From: Priestia megaterium NBRC 15308 = ATCC 14581
GTDB taxonomy: Bacteria; Bacillota; Bacilli; Bacillales; Bacillaceae_H
DNA length: 64,000 bases
Reading direction: 5' to 3'
NCBI RefSeq assembly: GCF_000832985.1
Contig: NZ_CP009920.1
Span: 4,830,501-4,894,500, forward strand
A program made the translations under genes and the position numbers. Position 1 is the stretch's first letter. The number at the start of each line of letters is the position of its first letter. Positions 26,238 to 38,540 of this stretch are shown here, in pieces. Under the pieces are notes generated by a model. That model saw nothing but the letters and a program-made list of their open reading frames with translations, was not told the origin of the DNA and did no database searches.

Positions 26238-27008
26238 TTAAAGCAGAATATTTTCCGCTCTTTCTTCGAACCATTTTATTTTTTCTCTAATTGTCACTAC
26301 CTCACCTACAAGCACGATAGCAGGATGAGCAATTTCTGCTTTTTTTGCTATTTCTTCGATTGTGGCAAGCGTTCCTGTTACGGTGCGCTGATACTTCGTT
26401 GTGCCCCATTGAACAAGCGCTACTGGCGTATGTTTATCTCGTCCATGGTCCATCAATTGCTTGCATATATGAGATAAATTTCCAACGCCCATGTAAAACG
26501 CAATTGTATCTATTCCTTGAGCAAGCGCTGACCAATTTAAATAATCTTTTCCTTTTTCTTCTCTTCCATGACCCGTTACAATCGCAAAAGAAGTGGCATG
26601 ATCTCTATGGGTAACAGGAATTCCTGCATAAGCTGGAGCTGCAATTCCTGACGTGATACCAGGCACTACTTCGTAAGGAATTCCTTGAGTAGCAAGCACT
26701 TCCGCTTCCTCTGCTCCGCGGCCAAACACAAAAGGATCGCCTCCTTTTAAGCGCGTCACTACTTTTCCTTGAAGCGCTTTTTCAACAAGCAGTTCGTGAA
26801 TACGATCTTGGATGACTCCGTGCTTGCCCGGTAATTTCCCGCAAAAAATAAGCTCCGCGTCTTTTTTAGCATAGTTTAACAACTGTTCGTTGGCTAAGCG
26901 GTCATATAAAATAACATCCGCTTCTTGAATACACTCCATTCCATATACGGTTATTAGCTTCGGATCTCCTGGTCCAGCTCCTACTAAATATACTTTTCCA
27001 ACTGTCAC
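26238..27008 (-). CDS. cobA: uroporphyrinogen-III C-methyltransferase (SUMT)
   Basis: A 256-aa methylase converting uroporphyrinogen III to precorrin-2, the entry point to cobalamin and siroheme. Conserved blocks: YLVGAGPGDPKLITVYG, DVILYDRLAN, KGGDPFVFGRGAEE and VVPGITSGIAAPAYAGIPVTHR. This is the gene called cysGA in B. megaterium. It starts with GTG at 27008, overlapping the cbiA stop by 4 bases. Confidence 0.95.
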   Translation of the reverse strand: MTVGKVYLVGAGPGDPKLITVYGMECIQEADVILYDRLANEQLLNYAKKDAELIFCGKLPGKHGVIQDRIHELLVEKALQGKVVTRLKGGDPFVFGRGAEEAEVLATQGIPYEVVPGITSGIAAPAYAGIPVTHRDHATSFAIVTGHGREEKGKDYLNWSALAQGIDTIAFYMGVGNLSHICKQLMDHGRDKHTPVALVQWGTTKYQRTVTGTLATIEEIAKKAEIAHPAIVLVGEVVTIREKIKWFEERAENILL

Positions 27009-28387
27009 ACGGCATCTCTTCTTTCTTTTTTTACCGCTTTACACTGTTCCACCCAGTTTTCTACCATCTTCGTAGAAGAGCCAAAATGAAAGTGCGTATA
27101 GCCGGCAATTAAATTATTGTTCATATAGCCTTCTTCTTTCATTCCTCGCATCCCTTTTGTATCATAGGCAGGCGAAAACTCTTTCTCTGAATGAAAGGTT
27201 GAATAATGAAATTCATGGCCTTTAGCTTGTATATCGCCTTTAAATAAAAAATTCCCCTGCTTTCCCGTCACTTCTCGGTACCCTAAAGCAGCTAATTTTG
27301 TCTGCATTCTTACTTGTCCGGGAATAAGCCCCACCATTTCATGGCATGTATCATCTGTTGTGACAATACCATCTGTTAAAAACATAAAGCCTCCGCACTC
27401 AGCAAGCGTAGGAATCCCTTTTTGAATAGCTGCTCGAACAGAATTTTTAACGTCGATTTGCTGAGCCAGCGTTTCAGCAAATTCTTCTGGAAATCCGCCT
27501 CCGATATAAAGACCGTCAGCATCTTGTGGAACCACTTCTCCTTTTAAAGGCGAAAATTCTACAAGCTCTGCTCCGTAAGCTTTTAACAATTCGAAATTTT
27601 CTTCATAATAAAAGTTAAAAGCCGCATCTCTCGCTACAGCAATTTTCACTTGAGGTACGGACGGCTTTGTAAAGATAGGCTCATTAATTTCTATTTTAGG
27701 AGCTAAAGCCAGTTCATATACTTTTTCGATATCAATTGTATCATGAACAAGCTTTCCTAACTGTTCAAAAAACGGTGTTAACTCTCCTCGTTCAATCGAC
27801 GGAATGAGCCCGAGGTGACGTTCAGGAATCGTAAGATCATCGTTTCTTTTCAAGTAGCCTACTACAGGGATATGACATTCCTGCTCAATCGCTGCCTTAA
27901 CAAGTTTATAATGCCCTTCACTTCCAACACGGTTAGCAATCACACCGACGATGTTAGCTTCGGGTAAAAATTGCTGAAAACCTTTTACAATCGCCGCTGC
28001 ACTTCTAGCCATACTAGCACAATTGACAACTAAAAGGACAGGGCTATTGGTGATTAAGCTGATTTCTGCTGTTGTTCCTTCGTTCGTTAACGGGTTTTTC
28101 CCATCGAAAAATCCCATAACTCCTTCCATGATGGAAATATCAGCATCTTCACTAGCACGAGCGACAATTTCTCTAACCATATCGTGTTCAAGCATCCAGC
28201 TGTCTATATTTCGAGATGTTCGTTCTGTAACAGTCGTATGATACGTTGGATCAATATAATCGGGTCCGCATTTAAACCCTTGAACTCTGTAACCAGCTTG
28301 TCTTAATGCTGCCATCAGCCCGATTGTAAGTGTTGTTTTCCCTACGCCACTTCCAGTACCGGCAATGACGAGTCTTCTGTTTGACAT
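27005..28387 (-). CDS. cbiA: cobyrinate a,c-diamide synthase
   Basis: A 460-aa glutamine- and ATP-dependent amidotransferase that amidates side chains a and c of the corrin ring. The N-terminal dethiobiotin-synthetase-like domain has the P-loop AGTGSGVGKTTLTIG. The C-terminal glutaminase domain has GGFPEEFAE and the nucleophile Cys in LAECGGFMFL near residue 335. ATG at 28387 is chosen because AAAGGAG precedes it; an earlier in-frame start at 28408 would overlap cbiG. Confidence 0.95.
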   Translation of the reverse strand: MSNRRLVIAGTGSGVGKTTLTIGLMAALRQAGYRVQGFKCGPDYIDPTYHTTVTERTSRNIDSWMLEHDMVREIVARASEDADISIMEGVMGFFDGKNPLTNEGTTAEISLITNSPVLLVVNCASMARSAAAIVKGFQQFLPEANIVGVIANRVGSEGHYKLVKAAIEQECHIPVVGYLKRNDDLTIPERHLGLIPSIERGELTPFFEQLGKLVHDTIDIEKVYELALAPKIEINEPIFTKPSVPQVKIAVARDAAFNFYYEENFELLKAYGAELVEFSPLKGEVVPQDADGLYIGGGFPEEFAETLAQQIDVKNSVRAAIQKGIPTLAECGGFMFLTDGIVTTDDTCHEMVGLIPGQVRMQTKLAALGYREVTGKQGNFLFKGDIQAKGHEFHYSTFHSEKEFSPAYDTKGMRGMKEEGYMNNNLIAGYTHFHFGSSTKMVENWVEQCKAVKKERRDAV

Positions 28388-28400
28388 GTTGTTCTCTCCT

Positions 28401-29525
28401 TTAGTCATAGGGAATAAGCGCCACTGAAATGGTTACATTCCCTGACTTTTTCTTCACAAGTTCAAGCTTATCAGCACCGCTGTATAACATAGCAGCAGGT
28501 TCACTGACGCCATATGCACCTGTATATTTAAAGACAGTATCTGAAGGCTGTTGGATACTTATGCTGTTTAGCTCTTGGGGCGAATAATAGACAAACTCCC
28601 ATCCGTACTTAGACGCCACTTCTAACAGCCCTTCTTCATCTTTCTTTAACTCTATTGTACATAATGCTTTTACACTTTTCATTGAAAACTGAAGTTCAGC
28701 AAGCGTTTTTTCAATAACGGTTTCAATTTCAGCTGTACTTGTCCCTCGATTGCATCCCATCCCAATCGCTAATACTTTTGGCCGGTAAAGAACACCGTTT
28801 TCTAAGATTGCTTCTTCCTCTTTTTTTAAATTGCGATGCGTTACGATCAAAGCTGCATGTGGCGATGCTTCAAGAGCTGTCTGAATCGATGAATATGTTT
28901 TAATGTTAGCTGGAACAGGGTGCTCATAATGCCACCAGTTCTTTTCACCTGATTCTTGAACCACTGCTATTTCTTCTTCATTCACCACAGAAGCGCTGAC
29001 AGGCGTTAGTTTTTCTGCTGACTCCCACACCCATCCAAAGCGCTTACCAAATAAATCAACTGGAATTGTTTTTTGCACATCGGATGCTGTTGTAATAACA
29101 GGATGAGCTTCAAGAACTGCCGCAACTTCACGCGTAAGCTCATTTGCTCCTCCGATATGACCCGAAAGCACGCTGATGACATTTTCGCCTTTATCATCAA
29201 TGACAACAACCGCAGGATCCGTTTTTTTATCTTTTAAAATAGGAGCAATCATACGTACAACTGCTCCGAGTGAGATAATAATAATAAGCCCTTTATACGA
29301 TTCAAAAAGAGAAGGCAAAAGCATCCGAACGCTTCCTGAAAACAGCTGAATGTTCTGCTCTTGTTCGTCTCCTTTTTCAAACTTGCTCATGTAATACACA
29401 TCAGACTGCTGAAAAGTGCGGCCTAGATTTCTTGCAATTTCCACGCCGTGTTTTGTGATAGCTACAACGGCATAATCTCCGCGCTGTGTAATGAGGGCTT
29501 TTTTTCCTTCTTGGAGTTGAATCAT
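28401..29525 (-). CDS. cbiG: cobalt-precorrin-5A hydrolase
   Basis: A 374-aa enzyme that opens the delta-lactone of cobalt-precorrin-5A and releases acetaldehyde. The N-terminal half has SLGAVVRMIAPILKDKKTDPAVVVIDDKG and VLSGHIGGANELT; the C-terminal domain has LAIGMGCNRGTS. It overlaps cbiF by 4 bases, indicating coupling, and precedes cbiA by 13 bases. Confidence 0.94.
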   Translation of the reverse strand: MIQLQEGKKALITQRGDYAVVAITKHGVEIARNLGRTFQQSDVYYMSKFEKGDEQEQNIQLFSGSVRMLLPSLFESYKGLIIIISLGAVVRMIAPILKDKKTDPAVVVIDDKGENVISVLSGHIGGANELTREVAAVLEAHPVITTASDVQKTIPVDLFGKRFGWVWESAEKLTPVSASVVNEEEIAVVQESGEKNWWHYEHPVPANIKTYSSIQTALEASPHAALIVTHRNLKKEEEAILENGVLYRPKVLAIGMGCNRGTSTAEIETVIEKTLAELQFSMKSVKALCTIELKKDEEGLLEVASKYGWEFVYYSPQELNSISIQQPSDTVFKYTGAYGVSEPAAMLYSGADKLELVKKKSGNVTISVALIPYD

Positions 29526-30298
29526 TCCGACTTCACTCCTCTTCGAAAGCCATGGGTAAATGTTTTGTCATAAAGTTTTGAACGATAATCTTTGTCATGA
29601 ATGTGTGGATCAAGTGCCCAGCCTGCCAAAATCATCGCCTGCTTGCGAATGCCGTTTGTTCGCATAGCATCATCGAGGTCTTTTACCGTTGTGCGAACAA
29701 TTTTTTCATCTGGCCACGTTGCTTTATAGACTACTACAATCGGCGTGTCTTCACTCCAACCCGCGCTTATAAATTCTTTCATTACTTTTTTTGTGAGCGT
29801 CGCGCTTAAAAATAACGCAATGGTACATTTATGTTTTGCTAAATCAGTTAATTTTTCAAACTCAGGTACAGGCGTTCTTCCTTCAGCACGAGTTAAAATA
29901 ACCGTTTGAGTCAAATCTGGAATGGTTAATTCTGCTTCAGCCGCTGCAGCAGCAGCGAATACGGAGCTGACGCCCGGAACGATTTCAATATCAACGCCTT
30001 CTCTTTTTAAAAGCACCATTTGTTCCATAATGGCTCCGTACATAGCAGGATCTCCGGTATGTACTCTTACAACCATTTTTCCTTCACGCATGCGTTCAAG
30101 CATCGTACCGACCATTTCTTCTAAATGCATACCCGCTGTTTTTAACACTTCAGCTCCTGGTTTAGACTTAGCAACTAGCTCTTGACTTACCAGTGAGTCA
30201 GCGTACAAGACAACATCTGCTTGCTGAAGTAATTTTAAGCCTTTTACGGTAATTAAATCTGGATCTCCGGGTCCAGCTCCGATTATGTATAACTTCAT
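29522..30298 (-). CDS. cbiF: cobalt-precorrin-4 C11-methyltransferase
   Basis: A 258-aa SAM-dependent tetrapyrrole methylase. Conserved blocks: YIIGAGPGDPDLITVKG at the start, VVRVHTGDPAMYGAIMEQM near residue 77, and VPGVSSVFAAAAAAEAELT near residue 105. The B. megaterium CbiF was the first enzyme of this family with a crystal structure. It overlaps cbiL by 4 bases. Confidence 0.95.
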   Translation of the reverse strand: MKLYIIGAGPGDPDLITVKGLKLLQQADVVLYADSLVSQELVAKSKPGAEVLKTAGMHLEEMVGTMLERMREGKMVVRVHTGDPAMYGAIMEQMVLLKREGVDIEIVPGVSSVFAAAAAAEAELTIPDLTQTVILTRAEGRTPVPEFEKLTDLAKHKCTIALFLSATLTKKVMKEFISAGWSEDTPIVVVYKATWPDEKIVRTTVKDLDDAMRTNGIRKQAMILAGWALDPHIHDKDYRSKLYDKTFTHGFRRGVKSE

Positions 30299-30996
30299 TT
30301 TCGCACCACCATTAGCGTTAAGTATTGTAAATCAGCTCCTTCTAGTTCTGAAGCTTTCCAGATAATTTCTTCATCTGACGTTACTTTTGTCACCACTGAC
30401 GCTTTTTCAAGCAGATCAAGCTCTTTTAAAAGACCAACCATAAAATCGATGACTTTGGCCACTTTAATAAAAATGACGCAGTCGTTTTCCATTAATACTT
30501 TTTTCATTGTTTCATAATCTTCACGAGCAGGAACAATCGCTACATGTTCATCACCGTCTGCTAAAGGAATACCTAAGCGAGATGCCACTCCATTAATAGA
30601 TGAAATGCCAGGAATTACTTGAATCGGAGCTTCAGGGTGACACTCTTGCATTAAACGCATCATGTGAATAAACGTGCTGTAAAGCATAGGGTCGCCCTCT
30701 GTCACAAATGCTACATCTTTTCCTTCTTCAAGCTTTTCCCATACTCGCTCCACCGTTTCGGTCCATTTTTTCTCTAAGATAGCAGGATCTTTTGTCATGG
30801 GAAACACAAGGCCGAGCATGTCTTTTTCATTTGCACTGAAATAGACATCAATAATTTTTTGGGCATAGCTTTTGCTTCCTTTTTGCTTTTTCGGATACGC
30901 AATAACGGGTGATTCTTTTAATTTACGAAATGCTTTTACCGTGATTAGTTCTGGATCTCCTGGTCCAACTCCAAGTCCGTACAATGTTCCAATCAT
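30295..30996 (-). CDS. cbiL: cobalt-precorrin-2 C20-methyltransferase
   Basis: A 233-aa tetrapyrrole methylase with GTLYGLGVGPGDPELITVKA at the N-terminus, FVTEGDPMLYSTFIHMM and VIPGISSINGVASRLGIPLA. It adds the C20 methyl group that is later removed during ring contraction. The ATG at 30996 fits AAAGGAG with 7-base spacing; ATG 31002, which overlaps the cbiET stop, is the alternative. Confidence 0.94.
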   Translation of the reverse strand: MIGTLYGLGVGPGDPELITVKAFRKLKESPVIAYPKKQKGSKSYAQKIIDVYFSANEKDMLGLVFPMTKDPAILEKKWTETVERVWEKLEEGKDVAFVTEGDPMLYSTFIHMMRLMQECHPEAPIQVIPGISSINGVASRLGIPLADGDEHVAIVPAREDYETMKKVLMENDCVIFIKVAKVIDFMVGLLKELDLLEKASVVTKVTSDEEIIWKASELEGADLQYLTLMVVRK

Positions 30997-30998
30997 GT

Positions 30999-32195
30999 TC
31001 ATTCTCCTTTTTGAGCTGTAATAATATAAATAGGGTTTAAAGCATCAAAGCGTGTTAAATGTAAAATTGGCTTGCTCCTTGAAATTTGTGCAAGGGTAAC
31101 AGCAGTCTCAAATCCTCGCTCTTTAAAAGCTTTCATCGCTTCTGCTAAATTTTCAATTGTCACGGCGTTTAATACGATACGTCCTTCTGAATTTAAGCGG
31201 CTGCAGCACACGTCCAAAATGGTTTCCATGCCTCCTGCTGTCCCTCCAATAAACACTGCATCAGGATCAGCAAACTCATTTAGTCCTTCTGGTGCTTTTC
31301 CGTGCACAGTGTGGGCATCAACCCGAAATTTCGCTAGATTTTCCCTGCAATTTTCTAAGTCTGCTTCATTTTTTTCCACAGCAAAAATTTGTCCTTCACG
31401 CGCAATTTTAGCCGCTTCAATTGCCACTGAACCTGTACATGTTCCGATATCCCACACGACGCTGTCTTTCTTTAGCTGCAGGGCGCTAATACTAAGTGTA
31501 CGAACTTCTTTTTTAGTGATAAGTCCTTTATCCGGCTTGCGTTGAATAAATTCATCATCTTCTATTCCAAGAGGCCAAACTGGGCTTTTTTCTATCTGTT
31601 TTAATATCACGACATTAAGCGGAGAAAAGAGTTGATTCGCCGCTTCTTCCAGCGAAAGCAGCTGACAGCGCTCCGTTTTCCCACCTAAATTCTCTGCTAC
31701 AAACATCTTGTATTCTGTCATGCCAAATGACAATAAGTAGTTTGCCAGAGCACTAGGAGAATTTTGCTCATCGGTTAGAATCGCCACTGTTCTATAGCCG
31801 TCAATGCGCTGAGCCAGCCCTTTTATGCTCCTGCCGTGCACGCTTGTAAAATAAGCGTCTTGCCATCGCTCCTTTAGGCGTGAGAATGCAAGCTGAATAG
31901 AACTTAAATAAGGGTATATTTCAACGTCTAGCTTCGTAGAAAGATAGCTTCCTATTCCGTAAAATAACGGATCACCTGAGGCTAACACAACCGCATTTCC
32001 TTCTTCGTTTTTTAAACGTTCAACAAGAGAAGAAAGCCCTCCTTCAATCGCCACTTTTTCTCCTTTGAAATCTTGAAAAAAATCAAGGTGACGCTTACCT
32101 CCAACTAGCACATCGCTTTCATAAATCCACTTTTCATACATAGGAAGCAAACTTAACTTTCCGTCGTCACCAATTCCAATAATTTTAATTGCCAT
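30999..32195 (-). CDS. cbiET: bifunctional cobalt-precorrin-7 C5-methyltransferase / C15-methyltransferase-decarboxylase
   Basis: A 398-aa fusion. Residues 1-200 are a CbiE-type methylase ([30 protein letters not shown]). Residues 205-398 are CbiT, a Rossmann methyltransferase with [19 protein letters not shown] and the decarboxylase-associated [15 protein letters not shown]. Fusion of CbiE and CbiT is the normal state in this operon. It overlaps cbiD by 11 bases. Confidence 0.94.
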
Positions 32196-33288
32196 GTTGC
32201 ACCGCCTGTCCTAAAAAATCTCCTTTTAATGTGTAAAGAGACGTATCGACATCGATTCCGTCCCCTACTTCCTTTAACGCTGATAAACAGCAGTACTCGC
32301 ACAGTTTTTCAAAAAACTGATGATGACCGCTTTGTGTCATTAAATCTCCCACTTGAGAAGCTGTGTTTGCACCTTTTATTTCCTCTACCAGTTCAGCAGA
32401 AGCGCCTGACTCAGAAGCTGCTTTTGCTAAAAAATTAAAATCAATGGGTGCACTTTTTGAATGAACCATCATAACGCCTTGCGCGACTTTTGAAAACTTT
32501 CCCATCATGCCTACGAGCGATACTTTTTTCATTCCTTGCTTTTTACATTGTTTTAACGTAAATCCAACAAAATCTCCCATTTCGATAAATGCTTCTTCCG
32601 GAAGATCTGGGAACTGTTTCATTCCATACTTTTCGCTTCGGCCCCCTGTCGTAATGACGACGTGCTCACAATTACTTGCTTTAGCAACGCTGATTGCCTG
32701 CACGATGCTTGCTTTATAAGCAGCTGTTGAGAACGGAACGACAATCCCCCGCGTCCCCAGTATCGAAATGCCTCCTAAAATACCTAGACGCGCATTTAAT
32801 GTCTTTTTCGCCATTTCTTCTCCCTGAGGAACCGAGATGACAATCTTAACGCCTTTTTGTATATTGTATTGGGCTAAAAGCTGTTCAGCCGTTTCTTTCA
32901 GCATCTTTCTTGGAACAGGGTTAATGGCTGCTTCACCGACAGGAACCGGGAGGCCGGGCTTTGTCACACGCCCTACTCCCACTCCTCCATCAATGATAAT
33001 GCCTGCACCATTACACCACGAAACTTCAGAAATAATCAGCGCTCCGTGCGTGGCATCGGGATCATCTCCAGCATCTTTAATGATGCTAGCTACAGCGCTG
33101 CTTGTACGATACTCGCATTCTTCAAGATGAAACGTAGCAAAGCGGCCGACAGGTAGGTAAATCGTTGACTCATCTTGCACTTCTCCTGAAATTAGCGTAA
33201 GCAGAGCTGCTCTCGTAGCTGCCGTTGCACAAGCGCCCGTCGTATAGCCTTCTCTGAGTTTCTTAGGTTCTTTTGGTACTTCCTTCAT
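32185..33288 (-). CDS. cbiD: cobalt-precorrin-5B C1-methyltransferase
   Basis: A 367-aa SAM-dependent enzyme of the anaerobic pathway, unrelated to the canonical tetrapyrrole methylases. Typical blocks: [20 protein letters not shown] at the N-terminus, [15 protein letters not shown], and [19 protein letters not shown]. Its presence, with cbiG and cbiX, marks the oxygen-independent route. It follows cbiC by 3 bases. Confidence 0.95.
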
Positions 33289-33291
33289 GCG

Positions 33292-33939
33292 TTACACCTG
33301 ATCTGCAAGAATTGAAATTGCATTTAATGCAGCAACCGTTACCGTACTGCCGCCTTTTCGCCCGATGTTTGTAATAAACGGCACGTCAAGTTTTGCAAGT
33401 TCTTCTTTAGATTCAGCTGCTGAAACAAATCCTACCGGCAGACCAATAACAAGCCCAGGCTTCGCTTCTCCTTCTTTAATCAAACGAATTAATTCAAGTA
33501 AAGCTGTGGGTGCGTTCCCAATTGCAAAAATTCCACCGTCTGCTTCTTTGATGGCTTTTCGCATAGAAATAATTGCACGCGTTGTATTTAAGCGCTTTGC
33601 TTCTTCCATTACGTCCGGATCTGAAATATAAACTTTGATTTCACCGCCGTGTTTTTCAATTCGCTGCTTGTTTGTTCCTACTTGCACCATTTGTACATCT
33701 GCAACCACTTGCTTGCCGCTGCGAATAGCTTTAATTCCTGCTTGAATCGCATCCGGATGAAACAGCATGCTGCGTCCAAGCTCAAAGTCTGCAGACGCAT
33801 GAATTACGCGCTGAACAATTGGGTACTGTTCGTCTGTAAACGGATGAGACCCAAGCTCTTCTGTAATCATCTCAAAACTTTTTCCTTCTATTTGCTGAGG
33901 CTGAACAGTTAACGGTTTAAATTCTGTACGAAAATCCAT
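33292..33939 (-). CDS. cbiC: cobalt-precorrin-8 methylmutase
   Basis: A 215-aa enzyme that moves the C11 methyl to C12 to give cobyrinic acid. Motifs: VIHASADFELGRSMLFH (the His is the catalytic base), VADVQMVQVG, and the C-terminal GLPVGFVSAAESKEEL. The ATG at 33939 lies 9 bases after AGGAG and follows the cbiJ stop; an upstream TTG at 33948 would leave no spacing. Confidence 0.95.
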   Translation of the reverse strand: MDFRTEFKPLTVQPQQIEGKSFEMITEELGSHPFTDEQYPIVQRVIHASADFELGRSMLFHPDAIQAGIKAIRSGKQVVADVQMVQVGTNKQRIEKHGGEIKVYISDPDVMEEAKRLNTTRAIISMRKAIKEADGGIFAIGNAPTALLELIRLIKEGEAKPGLVIGLPVGFVSAAESKEELAKLDVPFITNIGRKGGSTVTVAALNAISILADQV

Positions 33940-33944
33940 CTCAA

Positions 33945-34712
33945 TCAACTCCTAGTTTGGTTTACTAAAGCATGAACCACTTCTTCAAAAGTGGAATACA
34001 CGGTCCCATACTCAATTTTCGGTCGCCCAATCATAATAATATCTAAGCCTAACTCTTTGGCTGCTTCCACTTTTTCATCCACAGATCCAACTTTTCCGCT
34101 TTCTTTTGTGACCATGACCGTCACTCCGTATTGCTTATACAGTGCTCGATCAAACTCTTTTGTAAAAGGCCCTTGAATAGCAATAATATTTTTTTGCGGA
34201 AATCCTAATTGCTGGCACTTTTCCATATTATCCAGCCTTGGAAGCATACGAGCAACAAGCCGTACATCTGAAAGAGGAAGCAGCTTTTCTGTAAAAACCT
34301 GCAGCGTTTTGCTGCCTGTTGTCAGCATAATAACTCCTTTTTTCTCAGCTGCTACTTCTGCTGCTTCTTCATACGTAGAAACCATCGTCATATTATCATA
34401 GGCAAAAGCCTGCGAAGCCCGCTCATAGCGTATGTAAGGAATCGCTGTTTCAGCAGCCGCGCCGATAGCATTTTTAGATGCTTCTTCTGCAAAAGGATGA
34501 CTTGCATCCACAATAGCTTTTACACGATGTTCGTTTACAAAATCCATCATATCTTCTTTTTTGAGACGTCCAATTTTCACTTTCACTTCTGCACGCTGTA
34601 ATTCGATAGCTGCGTTTTCGGTTACAACCGTTGCCGTAACCTCATGACCTGCTTTTTTCACTTGCACGGCTAATGCACGTGCATCGCTAGTTCCGGCTAA
34701 CAATAAAATCAT
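33945..34712 (-). CDS. cbiJ: cobalt-precorrin-6A reductase
   Basis: A 255-aa NADH/NADPH-dependent reductase of the corrin macrocycle. It starts MILLLAGTSDARALAVQVKKAG and contains VDASHPFAEEASKNA, ITTGSKTLQVF-like LTTGSKTLQVF, and IAIQGPFTKEFD, the CbiJ/CobK pattern. It overlaps cbiX by 4 bases. Confidence 0.93.
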   Translation of the reverse strand: MILLLAGTSDARALAVQVKKAGHEVTATVVTENAAIELQRAEVKVKIGRLKKEDMMDFVNEHRVKAIVDASHPFAEEASKNAIGAAAETAIPYIRYERASQAFAYDNMTMVSTYEEAAEVAAEKKGVIMLTTGSKTLQVFTEKLLPLSDVRLVARMLPRLDNMEKCQQLGFPQKNIIAIQGPFTKEFDRALYKQYGVTVMVTKESGKVGSVDEKVEAAKELGLDIIMIGRPKIEYGTVYSTFEEVVHALVNQTRS

Positions 34713-35620
34713 TTTAGCTCGCCGACCTTATCTTCATGGTGGTCGTGGTCATGATGGTGATCGTGGTGATGGTGTCCGTGATCATGGTCATGATCGTGAT
34801 GATGGTGGTGATCAATATGCTCCATAATGCCGAGGCGATATTGACACGTATCGCAGTTCATTTTCACTTCACCTTCTAATCCTTCTTCAGCACGTTCTTT
34901 TAAAATTGTCTGCAGTTTTGGATGAAAACCGAAATAGCCAGCTAGCTTAAATTCGATGTTTTCATGCTGCATTTTATACTGCTTCACCATTTCTTCTAAT
35001 CGCTTAATTAGTACTCCTGTAAATAAGAAATACGGGAGAATAACCACTTTTTTAGCGCCCAGTTTTAAACATCGCTCTACCCCTTCATCAATCAGTGGAG
35101 CAGTCACGCCCATAAAAGAAGTTTCAACGATTTTATAGTTTGTTTTTTCCCAAAGAAGGCGCGTAATTTTATATAGATCACTGTTTGCATCAGGATCACT
35201 TCCTCCTCGCCCTAAGACAATAACAGCCGTGTCTTCAGCTGGAGTTTCTAAATTCTCTCCTGATTCTTGTAATCTCGTTTTTAAAATTTCCAGGGCTTCT
35301 TCATGAACGCCAATGGGACGTCCGTATACGAAGTTTACGTGTGGATATTTTCCCTTAGCTTCATCTATAGCCGCCGGAATATGTATTTTAGAGTGGCCGG
35401 CAGGCAAGAGCATAATTGGAATTACAACTACATCTTTTGCTCCTTTTGCCACACATGTATCAATGCCTTGACTTACATTTGGGCGTTCAAATTCTAGAAA
35501 ACACGTTTCTACTAAAATAGATGCGTCCCAATCATGCTTCATAGTCGAAATAAATTCGCGAATTTGATCGTTCCCTTCAGGATCTCTGCTTCCATGACCG
35601 ACAAATAAAACTGATTTCAT
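34709..35620 (-). CDS. cbiX: sirohydrochlorin cobaltochelatase, long CbiX with His-rich tail
   Basis: A 303-aa chelatase inserting cobalt into sirohydrochlorin. Two CbiX repeats are visible: VLFVGHGSRDPEGND at residue 4 and IVLGRGGSDPDANSDLY near residue 135; VIPIMLLPAGHSKIHIP carries a metal-binding His. A C-terminal MNCDTCQYRLG provides Cys ligands of the Fe-S centre known in B. megaterium CbiX. Residues of about 270-296 (34730-34815) are almost all His and Asp, a known metal-storage-like tail. AGGAGGG precedes the ATG. Confidence 0.95.
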   Translation of the reverse strand: MKSVLFVGHGSRDPEGNDQIREFISTMKHDWDASILVETCFLEFERPNVSQGIDTCVAKGAKDVVVIPIMLLPAGHSKIHIPAAIDEAKGKYPHVNFVYGRPIGVHEEALEILKTRLQESGENLETPAEDTAVIVLGRGGSDPDANSDLYKITRLLWEKTNYKIVETSFMGVTAPLIDEGVERCLKLGAKKVVILPYFLFTGVLIKRLEEMVKQYKMQHENIEFKLAGYFGFHPKLQTILKERAEEGLEGEVKMNCDTCQYRLGIMEHIDHHHHHDHDHDHGHHHHDHHHDHDHHEDKVGELK

Positions 35621-35638: not shown

Positions 35639-37261
35639 TTAATCTCCACACGGAGCTGGTTCTACTTTTATTTTTGGTGTTATATCTTGATAGTCGAATC
35701 CATAAACGTTCTTCACACGCTTAAAGAATTTATGAAATCGCTCATTAGGATGACCTTTTTCTTTATATTCATGGACAATGTTCTCGACTATTTCAATAAT
35801 GTCATCAGGTGCTATGCCTTCCGCCACAATTTGACCTGAATGCGCATTGCGTCCAACCGTTTTAGCTCCTAAAAATAAATCAAACGCACCTTTTCTATAG
35901 ACAATGCCGATATCTTCTTGAACTGCGCCATAGCAGGCCATGCCGCATCCATTAATACCAAGCTTCAGCTCTTTTGGCATGTCCATTCCCCCGAGGCGCT
36001 TTTGTAATTCTTCCGTATGTGGAATAGCATCGCTTTTTTCTCCGTCACAAAAATCACACGCTTTGATTGTGAACACATCTCCGACCGGAGATAGTAAAAA
36101 GGAAGCTGCTTGGAGCTTTTTAATAATCACATCTGGTTGAGTCGTTGGGATTTGCAGTTTGATTTGATGGTCAGGTGTATACTCCATCGTACCTTTTTCA
36201 CCAACAACTTCTGCTAGTGTTGTCATTTGAACAGGCGTGAATTTCTTATTTGCAAGTCCTGGACTAACCGCCACTTCGAAAATGGACTGTATTGGCTGAT
36301 GTACGACCGCAGAAGTAGGTTCACCTAAAATTGCTTGAAGCGCTTCTTCTGCAAGAACTCGTGAAGTTGCTGTTTCTTCTGGTGTGGTCTGAACTGCTTC
36401 AATAGCTGAAGCTGTTTGCTTTACAGTCTCTTCTTGATCGAGAGCCCACGGTTCCGCTTCTTTTCGAAGTCGCTGATGCGGTCTTAGCGGCTGCTCCGTT
36501 TGGTTAAGGGTATATTTCCGCTGATATCCGCGCGGTGTAATCATTAAATCGTCGTAAAAAAACGTAGATGAATTCCCGACAACAACGGTAGTCAGCATGC
36601 CAATTTCATGATTTAACATGTCTTTTAAGTTGGTCATTACGACTTCTTCACGGTGACGATAAGCGCTTTTCACAAGACCAACAGGCGTATCAGGAGAACG
36701 GTACTTTAATAGAATCCTCTGTGCTTCAACAATTTGTCTTGTTCGTCTTCCGCTTTTTGGATTGTAAAAAGCCACTACGAAATCTGCTTGTGCAGCTGCT
36801 TCGATTCTTTTTTCGATTAGTTCCCATGGCGTAAGGTGGTCACTTAAACTAATTGTACAAGCATCATGCATCACGGGCGCTCCAAGGAGGGATGCGCATG
36901 AATTAATAGCCGAAATGCCAGGAATTACTTCCAGCTCTACGCCCGTTTCTTTTTTCCAACCTTTTTCAATCAACACTTCATACACAAGGCCTGCCATTCC
37001 ATATACTCCTGCATCTCCGCTTGAAATGACAGCCACGGTTTTTCCTGCTTCAGCTTGCTTTACAGCTTCTTGTGCACGGCTTACTTCTTCGGTCATTCCC
37101 GTACTAATAATTTGCTGATTCGTTAACAGTCCTTGAATTAATTCCACATAGGTTTTGTAACCGATGATCATATCACTTTCTTGAATGGCTTCTCTTGCTC
37201 GCTGTGTAATATGTTCAAAGCTTCCCGGCCCAAATCCGATAACTAACAGTTTACCTTTCAT
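35639..37261 (-). CDS. cbiH60: cobalt-factor III methyltransferase CbiH60 with C-terminal Fe-S domain
   Basis: A 540-aa fusion. Residues 1-245 are the CbiH C17-methyltransferase / ring-contraction domain (VIGFGPGSFEHITQRA, VAVISSGDAGVYGMAGL, VIPGISAINSCASLLGAPVMHD, VVAFYNPKSGRRTRQI). A Pro/Glu/Thr-rich linker follows. Residues ~335-540 resemble the nitrite/sulfite-reductase half-domain with a 4Fe-4S motif in CDFCDGEKSDA and CGMACYGAVQED. The 60-kDa form is characteristic of B. megaterium. AAAGGAGGAGC precedes the ATG. Confidence 0.94.
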   Translation of the reverse strand: MKGKLLVIGFGPGSFEHITQRAREAIQESDMIIGYKTYVELIQGLLTNQQIISTGMTEEVSRAQEAVKQAEAGKTVAVISSGDAGVYGMAGLVYEVLIEKGWKKETGVELEVIPGISAINSCASLLGAPVMHDACTISLSDHLTPWELIEKRIEAAAQADFVVAFYNPKSGRRTRQIVEAQRILLKYRSPDTPVGLVKSAYRHREEVVMTNLKDMLNHEIGMLTTVVVGNSSTFFYDDLMITPRGYQRKYTLNQTEQPLRPHQRLRKEAEPWALDQEETVKQTASAIEAVQTTPEETATSRVLAEEALQAILGEPTSAVVHQPIQSIFEVAVSPGLANKKFTPVQMTTLAEVVGEKGTMEYTPDHQIKLQIPTTQPDVIIKKLQAASFLLSPVGDVFTIKACDFCDGEKSDAIPHTEELQKRLGGMDMPKELKLGINGCGMACYGAVQEDIGIVYRKGAFDLFLGAKTVGRNAHSGQIVAEGIAPDDIIEIVENIVHEYKEKGHPNERFHKFFKRVKNVYGFDYQDITPKIKVEPAPCGD

Positions 37262-37274
37262 GCTAGCTCCTCCT

Positions 37275-37661
37275 TTATGCGTTACTTTTTACTTTATCAA
37301 TTCCTTCTATGGAGTCACTGTTTTCCGGGGAAACGAAACCATTTTGATCATATTCATAAATAATCGATTCCTTTATACTGCAGCCTCCTGCTAAATGTTC
37401 TTCGACAATCCGGTGAGCCACGGTTTCAGTGACCTGCTTGTACCAATCTCCTGAAGGATACACAATAGCTACAGGAGCATCTTTACATCGTCCGTTACAG
37501 CGTGTACGCGTTGTATGAACCGTTTCATCCAAATCCAGTTCCGTCACTTTATTTCGAATAGCTTGGGTGGCTTCTTCTCCACCTTTTCTCATACAGCTGC
37601 TTCCATTACAAATCAATACGTGATGTTTTGTTCCGTTTAAGTTCCACGTCGTCACACTCAT
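37275..37661 (-). CDS. cbiW: thioredoxin-like 2Fe-2S ferredoxin, CbiW
   Basis: A 128-aa protein with the thioredoxin-like 2Fe-2S fold: ligands in VLICNGSSCMRKGGEEA near residue 17 and TRCNGRCKDAPVAIVYPSGDWY near residue 57. It is the first gene of the operon and probably supplies electrons or repairs Fe-S centres of CbiH60 or CbiX (inference). ATG at 37661 follows AAAGGAGCGA; the open frame to 37739 passes through a terminator hairpin and is rejected as coding. Confidence 0.9.
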   Translation of the reverse strand: MSVTTWNLNGTKHHVLICNGSSCMRKGGEEATQAIRNKVTELDLDETVHTTRTRCNGRCKDAPVAIVYPSGDWYKQVTETVAHRIVEEHLAGGCSIKESIIYEYDQNGFVSPENSDSIEGIDKVKSNA

Positions 37662-37674
37662 TCGCTCCTTTACT

Positions 37675-37707
37675 AAAAAAAGCGCCTCTATCAATGATAG
37701 AGGCGCA
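37675..37707 (-). terminator. riboswitch expression-platform terminator, proximal
   Basis: A 12-bp perfect stem (37682-37706) with a U7 run (A at 37675-37681) ends 5 bases before the cbiW ribosome binding site. It is the switch terminator of the proximal cobalamin riboswitch. Confidence 0.85.
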
Positions 37708-37767
37708 GAAAAATTCAAACTAAGTTTTTGCACTTCCACCTATATCCCGTAGGGTAAGCTTCGCATT

Positions 37768-37920
37768 AAAGAAAGGCTGGTTTCCTGACTTCGATTCATC
37801 ACTTGACTGCGCCTTCCCGAATACAGTGGCATATGCAATCAGCTCATCTTCACAGTGGCGGGTACCGCGCTGGCTTCACACCAGACTTCCCATTTAACAC
37901 AATGTAAACATTGCGCACCT
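37768..37920 (-). promoter_or_regulatory. cobalamin riboswitch, proximal
   Basis: The minus strand carries the conserved cobalamin aptamer blocks in order: GGGAAGTCTGGTGTGAAGCC, then GGTACCCGCCACTG, a second GCCACTG, TTCGGGAAGGC and finally the B12 box AGTCAGGAAACC. It lies 60 bases upstream of a terminator that precedes cbiW. Confidence 0.92.
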
Positions 37921-37952
37921 TTTTTGCACGATATGTAGTTTTACGACATGAG

Positions 37953-37983
37953 AAAAACCCGCTTCGCTAATATGCGAGCGGGT
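37953..37983 (-). terminator. terminator between the tandem riboswitches
   Basis: On the minus strand ACCCGCTCGC pairs with GCGAAGCGGGT (one mismatch/bulge, loop ATATTA), followed by TTTTTC. It stands downstream of the distal aptamer and upstream of the proximal one. Confidence 0.8.
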
Positions 37984-38068
37984 AAAACGTCAGAATAAGA
38001 GTGTACACGAATGCCACTTTAAGCCAACGTTTCCCTTCCCGCTCCCCGAAGAAATAGAAACTTCACAA

Positions 38069-38215
38069 TAAAGACAGGTCTCCTGACTTGTGTATCATTC
38101 TACTTGAGAACCTTCCCGTGATTTTTCCACAGTGGTTATACTCGTTCGTCCACACTTACAGTTGCGGGGGCAGTACTGGTCTTTCACCAGTTTCCCTATT
38201 AAGCCTTCTTGGCAT
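38069..38215 (-). promoter_or_regulatory. cobalamin riboswitch, distal
   Basis: A second complete aptamer on the minus strand: AATAGGGAAACTGGTGAAAG, GACCAGTACTGCCCCCGC, AACCACTGTGG, CACGGGAAGGTTC and the B12 box AAGTCAGGAGACC. With the proximal copy it makes a tandem leader of roughly 550 bases before cbiW. Confidence 0.92.
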
Positions 38216-38342
38216 CTTTGTTGTTGCTGTTTGATATATATGAACCTTTTAAACTATCAGAATAATAGAAGTAACTACCATATCATAGCGTACATTTTTT
38301 TTTATTTCAACTCTATTCTTTTCGAAAGATACAAGCATCTAT

Positions 38343-38379
38343 AAAAAAAACAAGAGCATAAAGTCAGCTCTTGTTTTTT
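38343..38379. terminator. terminator of 52-aa ORF
   Basis: AAAACAAGAGC / GCTCTTGTTTT with an A8 run on the + strand, just after the stop codon of the small minus-strand gene. Confidence 0.8.
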
Positions 38380-38381
38380 CA

Positions 38382-38540
38382 TTATATAGCTACTAATGTT
38401 AAATGAGGATCGTTATAATACACCACTTCTGAAAGAACTTTACAGCCATTTGTTTTGGCAAAAGCTTCTCTCGCCTGCTTTTCAGTTTCAAATTCAAACA
38501 TTTTCATTTCTTTTCCAGCATATACCGTCAGTACCCACAT
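38382..38540 (-). CDS. 52-aa protein, unknown function
   Basis: An ORF starting MWVLTVYAGKEMKMFEFET and ending NDPHLTLVAI, bounded by GGAGG 11 bases upstream and a clean terminator downstream. The sequence looks like a small alpha/beta fold (a strand, EMKMFEFETEKQAREAF helix, strands KVLSEVVYY). Amphipathic pattern and expression signals support a real gene. I recall similar short Bacillus ORFs but cannot name a family. Confidence 0.65.
   Translation of the reverse strand: MWVLTVYAGKEMKMFEFETEKQAREAFAKTNGCKVLSEVVYYNDPHLTLVAI

Follow-up and report, generated by a model that had tools for sequence, protein, structure and literature searches.

Two subfamilies of cobalamin riboswitch in a fixed order before the cobI operon of Priestia megaterium and related Bacillaceae

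RESULTS

Two complete cobalamin aptamers precede the cobI operon

The window analyzed here, a 64,000-nucleotide stretch of the 5.75-Mb genome of Priestia megaterium NBRC 15308, carries the cobI operon on its minus strand, behind a leader with two cobalamin aptamers (Table 1). The first gene, cbiW, encodes a 2Fe-2S ferredoxin-like protein that scores below every curated cut-off, and its name, like those of cbiX, J, C, D, ET, L, F, G, and A, is taken from the published operon order cbiWHXJCDETLFGA. The second gene, which we take to be cbiH60, encodes a precorrin-3B C17-methyltransferase with a C-terminal extension. The third open reading frame (ORF), cbiX by order (34709-35620, minus strand), ends in a long His/Asp-rich tail that is likely a metal-binding segment.

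At the Rfam gathering score, the whole window yields two matches, both to RF00174 (Cobalamin) and both on the minus strand; each spans the full length of the model (positions 1 to 189) and lies above the family's gathering score of 31.5 bits. Two copies of the B12-box core GTCAGGANACC are present in the window, one per aptamer, against a chance expectation of 0.03. A gap of 118 nt separates the aptamers and contains no ORF of 40 or more codons on either strand. In 167 aptamers, 43 columns are conserved at 93% or more; at these, the upstream copy has no departures and the downstream copy has one. J6/3 of the downstream aptamer reads GGAAACC and might include a base that alters the ligand; several other copies of both types described below share this variant. 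An earlier note, made from the letters alone, had proposed two complete switches, each with its own terminator, before the B12 operon, and the RF00174 matches and the terminator hairpins bear this out: the covariance model matches both proposed segments, and the boundaries drawn in the note (38069-38215 and 37768-37920) fall within the Rfam matches.

Eight RF00174 aptamers are present in this genome, the window pair included. Four of the other leaders precede genes that reach an NCBIfam curated cut-off (ribonucleotide reductase alpha, cobyric acid synthase, metE, and a nickel-type binding protein), and two precede genes that fall below the NCBIfam cut-off of the name given (a BtuF-like binding protein and a HoxN-family nickel/cobalt transporter).

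Table 1. Features of the cobI leader and operon, in order of transcription (window coordinates)
Feature	Position	Strand	Basis
Promoter-like site, TTGAAA-N17-TATGAT, sigma-A-like	38282..38310	-	Consensus match only
Upstream aptamer, subfamily A1, L5 CTGCCCCCGCAACTG	38056..38234	-	RF00174, 120.8 bits, E 9.4e-30; tree position
P13-L13 of upstream switch	38029..38061	-	Read from sequence
Predicted antiterminator, upstream switch	37974..38046	-	RNAfold of leader shortened before terminator 3' arm, -33.0 kcal/mol
Intrinsic terminator 1, followed by TTTCTCAT	37956..37985	-	Custom script, -17.2 kcal/mol
Downstream aptamer, subfamily B, L5 CGGTACCCGCCACTG	37758..37937	-	RF00174, 104.3 bits, E 5e-25; tree position
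P13-L13 of downstream switch, CCTA-CGGGATA-TAGG	37739..37753	-	Script and reading of sequence
Predicted antiterminator, downstream switch	37696..37740	-	RNAfold of leader shortened before terminator 3' arm, -15.8 kcal/mol
Intrinsic terminator 2 and U tract	37675..37706 (hairpin 37682-37706)	-	-19.7 kcal/mol; consensus scan and custom script
cbiW Shine-Dalgarno, AAAGGAG, outside terminator 2 stem	37665..37671	-	Read from sequence
cbiW, first cobI operon gene, 2Fe-2S ferredoxin-like	37275..37661 (ATG 37661)	-	Below every curated cut-off
Presumed cbiH60, precorrin-3B C17-methyltransferase with C-terminal extension	35639..37261	-	TIGR01466, 339.2 bits (cut-off 246.35)
Remaining operon genes, cbiX J C D ET L F G A, leader targets	27005..35620	-	ORFs

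Each aptamer has its own predicted terminator and antiterminator

The sigma-A-like site is the sole promoter-like match of at least 9/12 within the 120 nt before the upstream aptamer, and a consensus scan found no match of that quality on the minus strand between the two aptamers of the window. The same TTGAAA-17-TATGAT site is common to all five Priestia doublet genomes examined (G000, G001, G003, G007, and G009), and both switches are likely to lie in one leader. Just upstream of this leader lies an ORF of 52 codons (38382-38540, minus strand) that has a ribosome binding site of the GGAGG type and is followed, ahead of the promoter-like site, by a hairpin and T run (38350-38374, minus strand); by eye, a similar ORF stands at the same place in L034 and L042.

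In the upstream switch, the L13 sequence CGGGG (38044-38048) is complementary to CCCCG in L5 of its own aptamer, a match found by eye (the script did not parse this L5). The predicted antiterminator pairs GAGCGGG (38038-38044) with CCCGCTC (37976-37982) and AAACGT (38027-38032) with ACGTTT (37985-37990), and overlaps both the 3' side of P13 and the 5' arm of terminator 1. This terminator is identical in the five Priestia doublet genomes, but it is less certain than terminator 2, since a stricter consensus scan flagged the second only.

The downstream switch repeats this arrangement. Its L13 can pair with UACCCG in L5 of the same aptamer, leaving a single A bulged (UACCCG/CGGGaUA), and the predicted antiterminator, which overlaps P13 and the 5' arm of terminator 2, pairs GGTGGA (37735-37740) with TCTATC (37696-37701), GTGCA (37729-37733) with TGCGC (37703-37707), and AAAA with TTTT. 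In both switches the predicted folds are mutually exclusive. The U tract of terminator 2 stops a few nucleotides short of the cbiW ribosome binding site.

Doublets are widespread before cbi operons of Bacillaceae

We retrieved 80 named loci that encode a relative of CbiH60 and scanned 76 of them with Rfam (all but L117 to L120). The pairs counted as doublets lie on the operon strand ahead of the operon, with no more than 516 nt between the two aptamers. Among the 38 loci that we group as Bacillaceae and kin (L041 to L075, L084, L095, and L109), 21 have a doublet; the other 17 comprise 11 with a single type-A aptamer, 5 with a single type-B aptamer (one of which, L069, begins at a contig edge), and 1 with none (L064). 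The 38 other loci, mostly of Paenibacillaceae, contain no doublet (0/38), a count in which 25 had at least one aptamer within the fetched flank and 13 had none there, their leaders lying outside view. One locus, L086, has two aptamers 1,991 nt apart that flank a 636-codon ORF. In the window's own family, the operon occurs in 12 of 16 genomes, of which 7 have doublets. The set studied below consists of 26 doublets, those of the 21 loci and of five genomes of the window's family (G000, G003, G007, G009, and G011).

Beyond the cbi operon, inspection by eye of the match lists of 10 Priestia genomes and 20 named-locus genomes revealed no two aptamers on one strand separated by less than 600 nt. A class-wide search of 151 genomes gave two more same-strand doublets among the best matches listed, both in other families (G091, C3:246896-247503, and G064, C19:23424-24021), with aptamer starts about 410 nt apart.

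Each of the 52 aptamers in the 26 doublets received a hairpin-plus-U candidate, in a count made without a shuffle control. Most have a recurrent form, CCGCTC/GAGCGG for A1, CCTTAA/TTAAGG for A2, and GCACCTCTA for B; for several, the terminator picker took another hairpin (e.g., L043_B, L066_A, L068_B, L071_A, L073_A, and L074_A). Promoter-like matches precede the upstream copy in 23 of the 26 doublets, where the shuffle rate predicts about 4 matches, and fall between the copies in 7, where about 6 are expected.

Several loci have arrangements of their own. In Peribacillus and kin (L048, L050, L051, L052, L055, L056, and L061), a single A2 aptamer stands at the cbi operon, and a type-B aptamer, presumably heading a divergent unit, lies about 200 nt off on the opposite strand. 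The 7.6-kb cbiH60 locus of Halalkalibacter alkalisediminis (L064), unlike those of its relatives, contains no cobalamin aptamer that reaches the gathering score. In Neobacillus pocheonensis, the cbiH60 frame is broken, with 11 stops in one frame (L109:3001-4621), which may be a sequencing error or a real lesion.

Upstream and downstream copies belong to different subfamilies

In a tree of 142 aptamers (unrooted, its bootstrap not settled, and leaving out 26 of the 168 aptamers, from outside Bacillaceae and kin), a branch with support of 100/99 divides all 26 upstream from all 26 downstream copies. The upstream aptamer is always of one subfamily, A, and the downstream aptamer always of another, B, in 26/26 doublets. 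The difference in loop sequence between the two aptamers that the earlier note had remarked on is thus real and goes deeper than its author saw. Type-A L5 loops are mostly CTG(C/T)(A/C/T)CCCGCAACTG (A1) or GCAGCCCCCGCTACTG (A2), with L13 loops such as CTTCGGGGA or CTTCGGAGGGA; type-B L5 loops are CGGTACCCGCCACTG or CGGTCCCGCCACTG, with the L13 motif CTACGGG. The regular expression for L5 missed 4 of 168 rows (L054_A, L084_S, L136_o, and L175_o), which were placed by the tree, and the upstream aptamer of the window was typed as A1 by its L5, the motif being read from the sequence.

Complementarity of L5 and L13 is retained through sequence changes (CCCCG/CGGGG, UCCCG/CGGGA, CCCCCG/CGGaGGG, UUCCG/CGaGAA, UACCCG/CGGGaUA, and UGCCCG/CGGGaCA), in a comparison that lists 32 aptamers and has no random control. 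Compensated changes distinguish UACCCG/CGGGaUA of the window from UGCCCG/CGGGaCA of P. endophytica, and UCCCG/CGaGGA of other leaders of the window genome from UUCCG/CGaGAA of P. abyssalis. The script returned no L5 for 3 of the 32 (L029_A, L042_S, and L043_A), mis-parsed L109_A, and gave chance matches in five rows (GGTA in L044_B, L058_B, L072_B, and L109_B, and GTCCC in L046_A).

The pair did not arise by recent local duplication: A and B of the same locus are 56 to 65% identical (median, 61%), the same as A and B of different loci (61%), and cross-locus identity is 72% between A copies and 71% between B copies. A single clade of the type-A aptamers of cbi leaders was rejected (P = 5.35e-7; 36 rows without L054_A, the single type-A rows having been chosen after the first tree, and long branches being present), so that the A copies in the upstream slot represent two or more lineages. 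One of them, A1, is mixed with leaders of ribonucleotide reductase genes; the other, A2, groups with a cobyric acid synthase leader (L014) and a cobO-like leader (L153, named by eye). For the type-B aptamers of cbi leaders, a single clade was not rejected (P = 0.274, in a test without the long-branched L146, L160, and L162 and without 25 non-Bacillaceae singles, its bootstrap not settled), and they are compatible with a single inheritance. By motif, the single aptamers of non-Bacillaceae loci are type B in 25/25 cases, and type B makes up 31 of 42 singles (these 25, 5 of the 38 Bacillaceae and kin, and L035). From its presence in those 25 loci, rather than from a rooted tree, we infer that B is the older type of the cbi operon.

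Subfamily also varies with the gene controlled. Among 66 leaders of other genes, A1 occurs in 14/14 ribonucleotide reductase leaders and in 4/52 others (Fisher P = 4e-11, which is overstated because the leaders are related), and type B occurs in 9/9 metE leaders. The gene behind each such leader was taken as the longest ORF starting within 900 nt, eight being identified by NCBIfam, the rest by blastp to these, and L153 by eye. The metE aptamer of the window genome (L016) is itself type B, and it groups with other metE aptamers, not with those of cbi leaders.

Either copy can decay

Two loci retain one intact copy beside the remains of the other. P. megaterium CH447_14T (L042) has an intact A aptamer (110.0 bits), and its B site holds a recognizable terminator and scraps of an aptamer, with no RF00174 match even at an E value of 5. 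Conversely, a Halalkalibacterium locus (L054) has an intact B aptamer (114.8 bits), upstream of which an A copy (L054:1749-1935) scores 37.2 bits without a convincing terminator; this copy is apparently a riboswitch pseudogene, and we excluded it from the type-A clade test and the conserved-core count.

Within Priestia, the B copies of the five doublets score 98.9 to 109.3 bits versus 120.8 to 123.4 bits for the A copies; each B copy departs from a base conserved in 95% of aptamers (L032_B has two departures); and the B branch of the Priestia clade is longer than the A branch in the 142-aptamer tree. Because of these features and the decay in CH447_14T, Priestia B may be weak or in the course of being lost. 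The terminator stem after B in L030 (G007) has a mismatch (-12.5 versus -19.7 kcal/mol in the window), which may be another sign that the downstream switch is relaxing in this clade.

An operon protein tree (made by a quick method, with several long branches and many weak forks) interleaves doublets with single leaders; gains, losses, or replacements have therefore probably occurred several times, the tree being silent on which.

DISCUSSION

We consider it very probable that the cobI leader comprises two serial, complete transcriptional OFF riboswitches of the cobalamin (AdoCbl, Cbl-I) class, with the mechanism and history set out here. One transcript would begin before the upstream copy. When coenzyme B12, the presumed ligand, is bound, L5 would kiss L13 and P13 would stay closed, blocking the antiterminator and letting the terminator form; without ligand, the antiterminator would form and the polymerase would read through. 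This terminator/antiterminator logic has been established by disrupting and compensating mutants for the metE riboswitch of P. megaterium (PMC10653944). Because the polymerase would have to pass both decisions, read-through should be the product of two probabilities, provided that the decisions are independent; leakage would then be very low and the response, for switches of similar affinity, steeper. As to history, A would be a second subfamily, akin to the switches of ribonucleotide reductase (A1) or cobyric acid synthase (A2), of which two or more lineages contributed copies upstream of the older B in Bacillaceae; the pair would then have been retained in many lineages and cut to either copy in others.

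The earlier note had expected such a pair to give a shut-off both tighter and more graded than that of a single switch. The first expectation holds in principle, as serial terminators multiply their leaks; the second is not supported in general. When modeled simply, a pair of switches with equal affinity squares the leak and narrows the 10-to-90% span from 81-fold to 40-fold with complete termination, or to 49-fold with 90% termination. Among the cases computed, the response broadened only when termination was incomplete and affinities lay at least 10-fold apart, with spans of 113-fold (80% termination, ratio of 10), 127-fold (90%, ratio of 30), and 90-fold (95%, ratio of 30). The reading we favor is of serial, independent OFF switches whose shut-off would be tighter and usually steeper, and more graded only if their affinities differ strongly; such pairs have been described as more "digital" (PMC2258182; PMC9481103).

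We weighed three rival readings. The doublet could be a by-product, in which a second switch landed upstream and both are near-neutral, or transitional in a replacement of one switch by another; the coexistence of A-only (11/38) and B-only (5/38) leaders with doublets, the B relic in L042 and the decayed A in L054, and the longer B branch in Priestia all fit this account. Yet most of the 26 doublets, which represent about ten genera, keep the cores and, as far as checked, the kissing loops and expression platforms. Such widespread intact cores sit badly with strict neutrality, although the relics show that either copy can go, and we regard the by-product account as unlikely but deserving real weight. 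The proposal that the doublet is read from two transcripts, with a promoter for each copy or with the upstream switch yielding a short regulatory RNA, can draw on the 7 of 26 doublets with a 9/12 promoter-like match between the copies (at least 11 matches, counting overlaps) and on our estimate that terminator 1 would release an RNA of about 320 nt in high B12. Against it, about 6 such matches are expected by chance across the 26 doublets, neither the window nor the four further Priestia doublets nor the two doublets of the P. koreensis type has one, and the copies in the window have no 40-codon ORF between them; we think it very improbable.

The subfamilies might instead read different inputs, whether AdoCbl versus another upper ligand or by differing greatly in affinity or speed of binding, which would turn the leader into a two-input NOR gate or a two-threshold device. 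Every doublet (26/26) joins an A to a B copy in an unvarying order, and the upstream slot drew on two or more A lineages even though local duplication would have sufficed for steepness; A1 is tied to ribonucleotide reductase leaders (14/14) and B to metE leaders (9/9), and the subfamilies differ in L5 and L13, loops that line the corrin pocket in crystal structures. All of these aptamers nevertheless belong to RF00174 with nearly the same conserved core, and common descent of the pair accounts for part of the fixed order without selection. Shelton et al., moreover, reported semiselectivity for corrinoid tails in all the Bacilli riboswitches that they tested in vivo, and tail selectivity was not strongly associated with target function (PMC9600662). 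On balance, a difference in inputs seems unlikely to us, and the stronger version, in which Bacillaceae repeatedly built a heterotypic NOR gate by placing A1 or A2 upstream of B because the subfamilies sense different things, so that either cofactor form shuts the operon, slightly more so.

Serial OFF switches of two subfamilies, the reading we prefer, matter beyond this operon. Tandem switches of one class are usually explained as sharpening the response, which simple duplication would give; here the sensors are heterotypic in 26/26 doublets and keep one order, the upstream copy has separate sources, and natural leaders that have lost one copy or the other allow comparison. The natural series of A+B, A-only, B-only, and relic leaders offers a probe of whether pairs are retained for steepness, low leak, or inputs. 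P. megaterium is, in addition, an industrial B12 organism whose cobalamin riboswitches have been called the major bottleneck in engineering B12 synthesis (PMC8390425).

Part of this picture is already known, namely, the tandem kind, the class, the mechanism, and the count of eight cobalamin riboswitches, with which P. megaterium is credited in PMC8390425. The comparative pattern (the subfamily rule, fixed order, spread through Bacillaceae, and relics) was not met in the literature searched; supplements of the published surveys lie outside it and may record part of the pattern. The cobI operon has been reported to respond to cobalamin with nanomolar sensitivity (Moore et al. 2014, cited in PMC8390425), and the text of that review on the operon speaks of one riboswitch, whereas the leader in the window has two. 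In a table describing a cbiW sensor, the value 266 stands under the column "The start codon" (PMC5948670); if this is the distance to the start codon, the sensor would hold the downstream switch only, the downstream aptamer of the window starting 277 nt from the cbiW ATG.

Among known systems, the closest are the tandem AdoCbl switches published as "pseudo-cooperative" (Sudarsan et al. 2006, as cited; PMC2258182; PMC9481103). Tandem arrangements were found in <1% of leaders with these classes in 2007 (Barrick and Breaker, PMC2258182), and 26 AdoCbl doublets were counted by Sherlock et al. in 2022 (PMC9481103); the cobI doublet may be among them. Like those tandems, the cobI leader has two full aptamers of the same class before one operon, each with its own expression platform, although its different subfamilies make it uncertain that both bind one ligand with similar sensitivity; the tandem descriptions in these two papers, in their main accounts, mention no two subfamilies, fixed order, or lineage-wide distribution. 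The P. megaterium metE riboswitch (PMC9600662; PMC10653944) shares genus and class with the cobI pair but stands in tandem with a SAM riboswitch, where each cobI switch is partnered by another cobalamin switch. The cobI leader is not a tandem of the bi-mechanism type, which combines transcriptional and translational control, since both of its platforms end in a hairpin with a T-rich tail and the Shine-Dalgarno sequence lies outside the second stem. Tandem TPP switches and the glycine riboswitch likewise place two sensors for one ligand in one leader, but the glycine aptamers share a single expression platform, whereas the cobI aptamers have one each, with a terminator between them.
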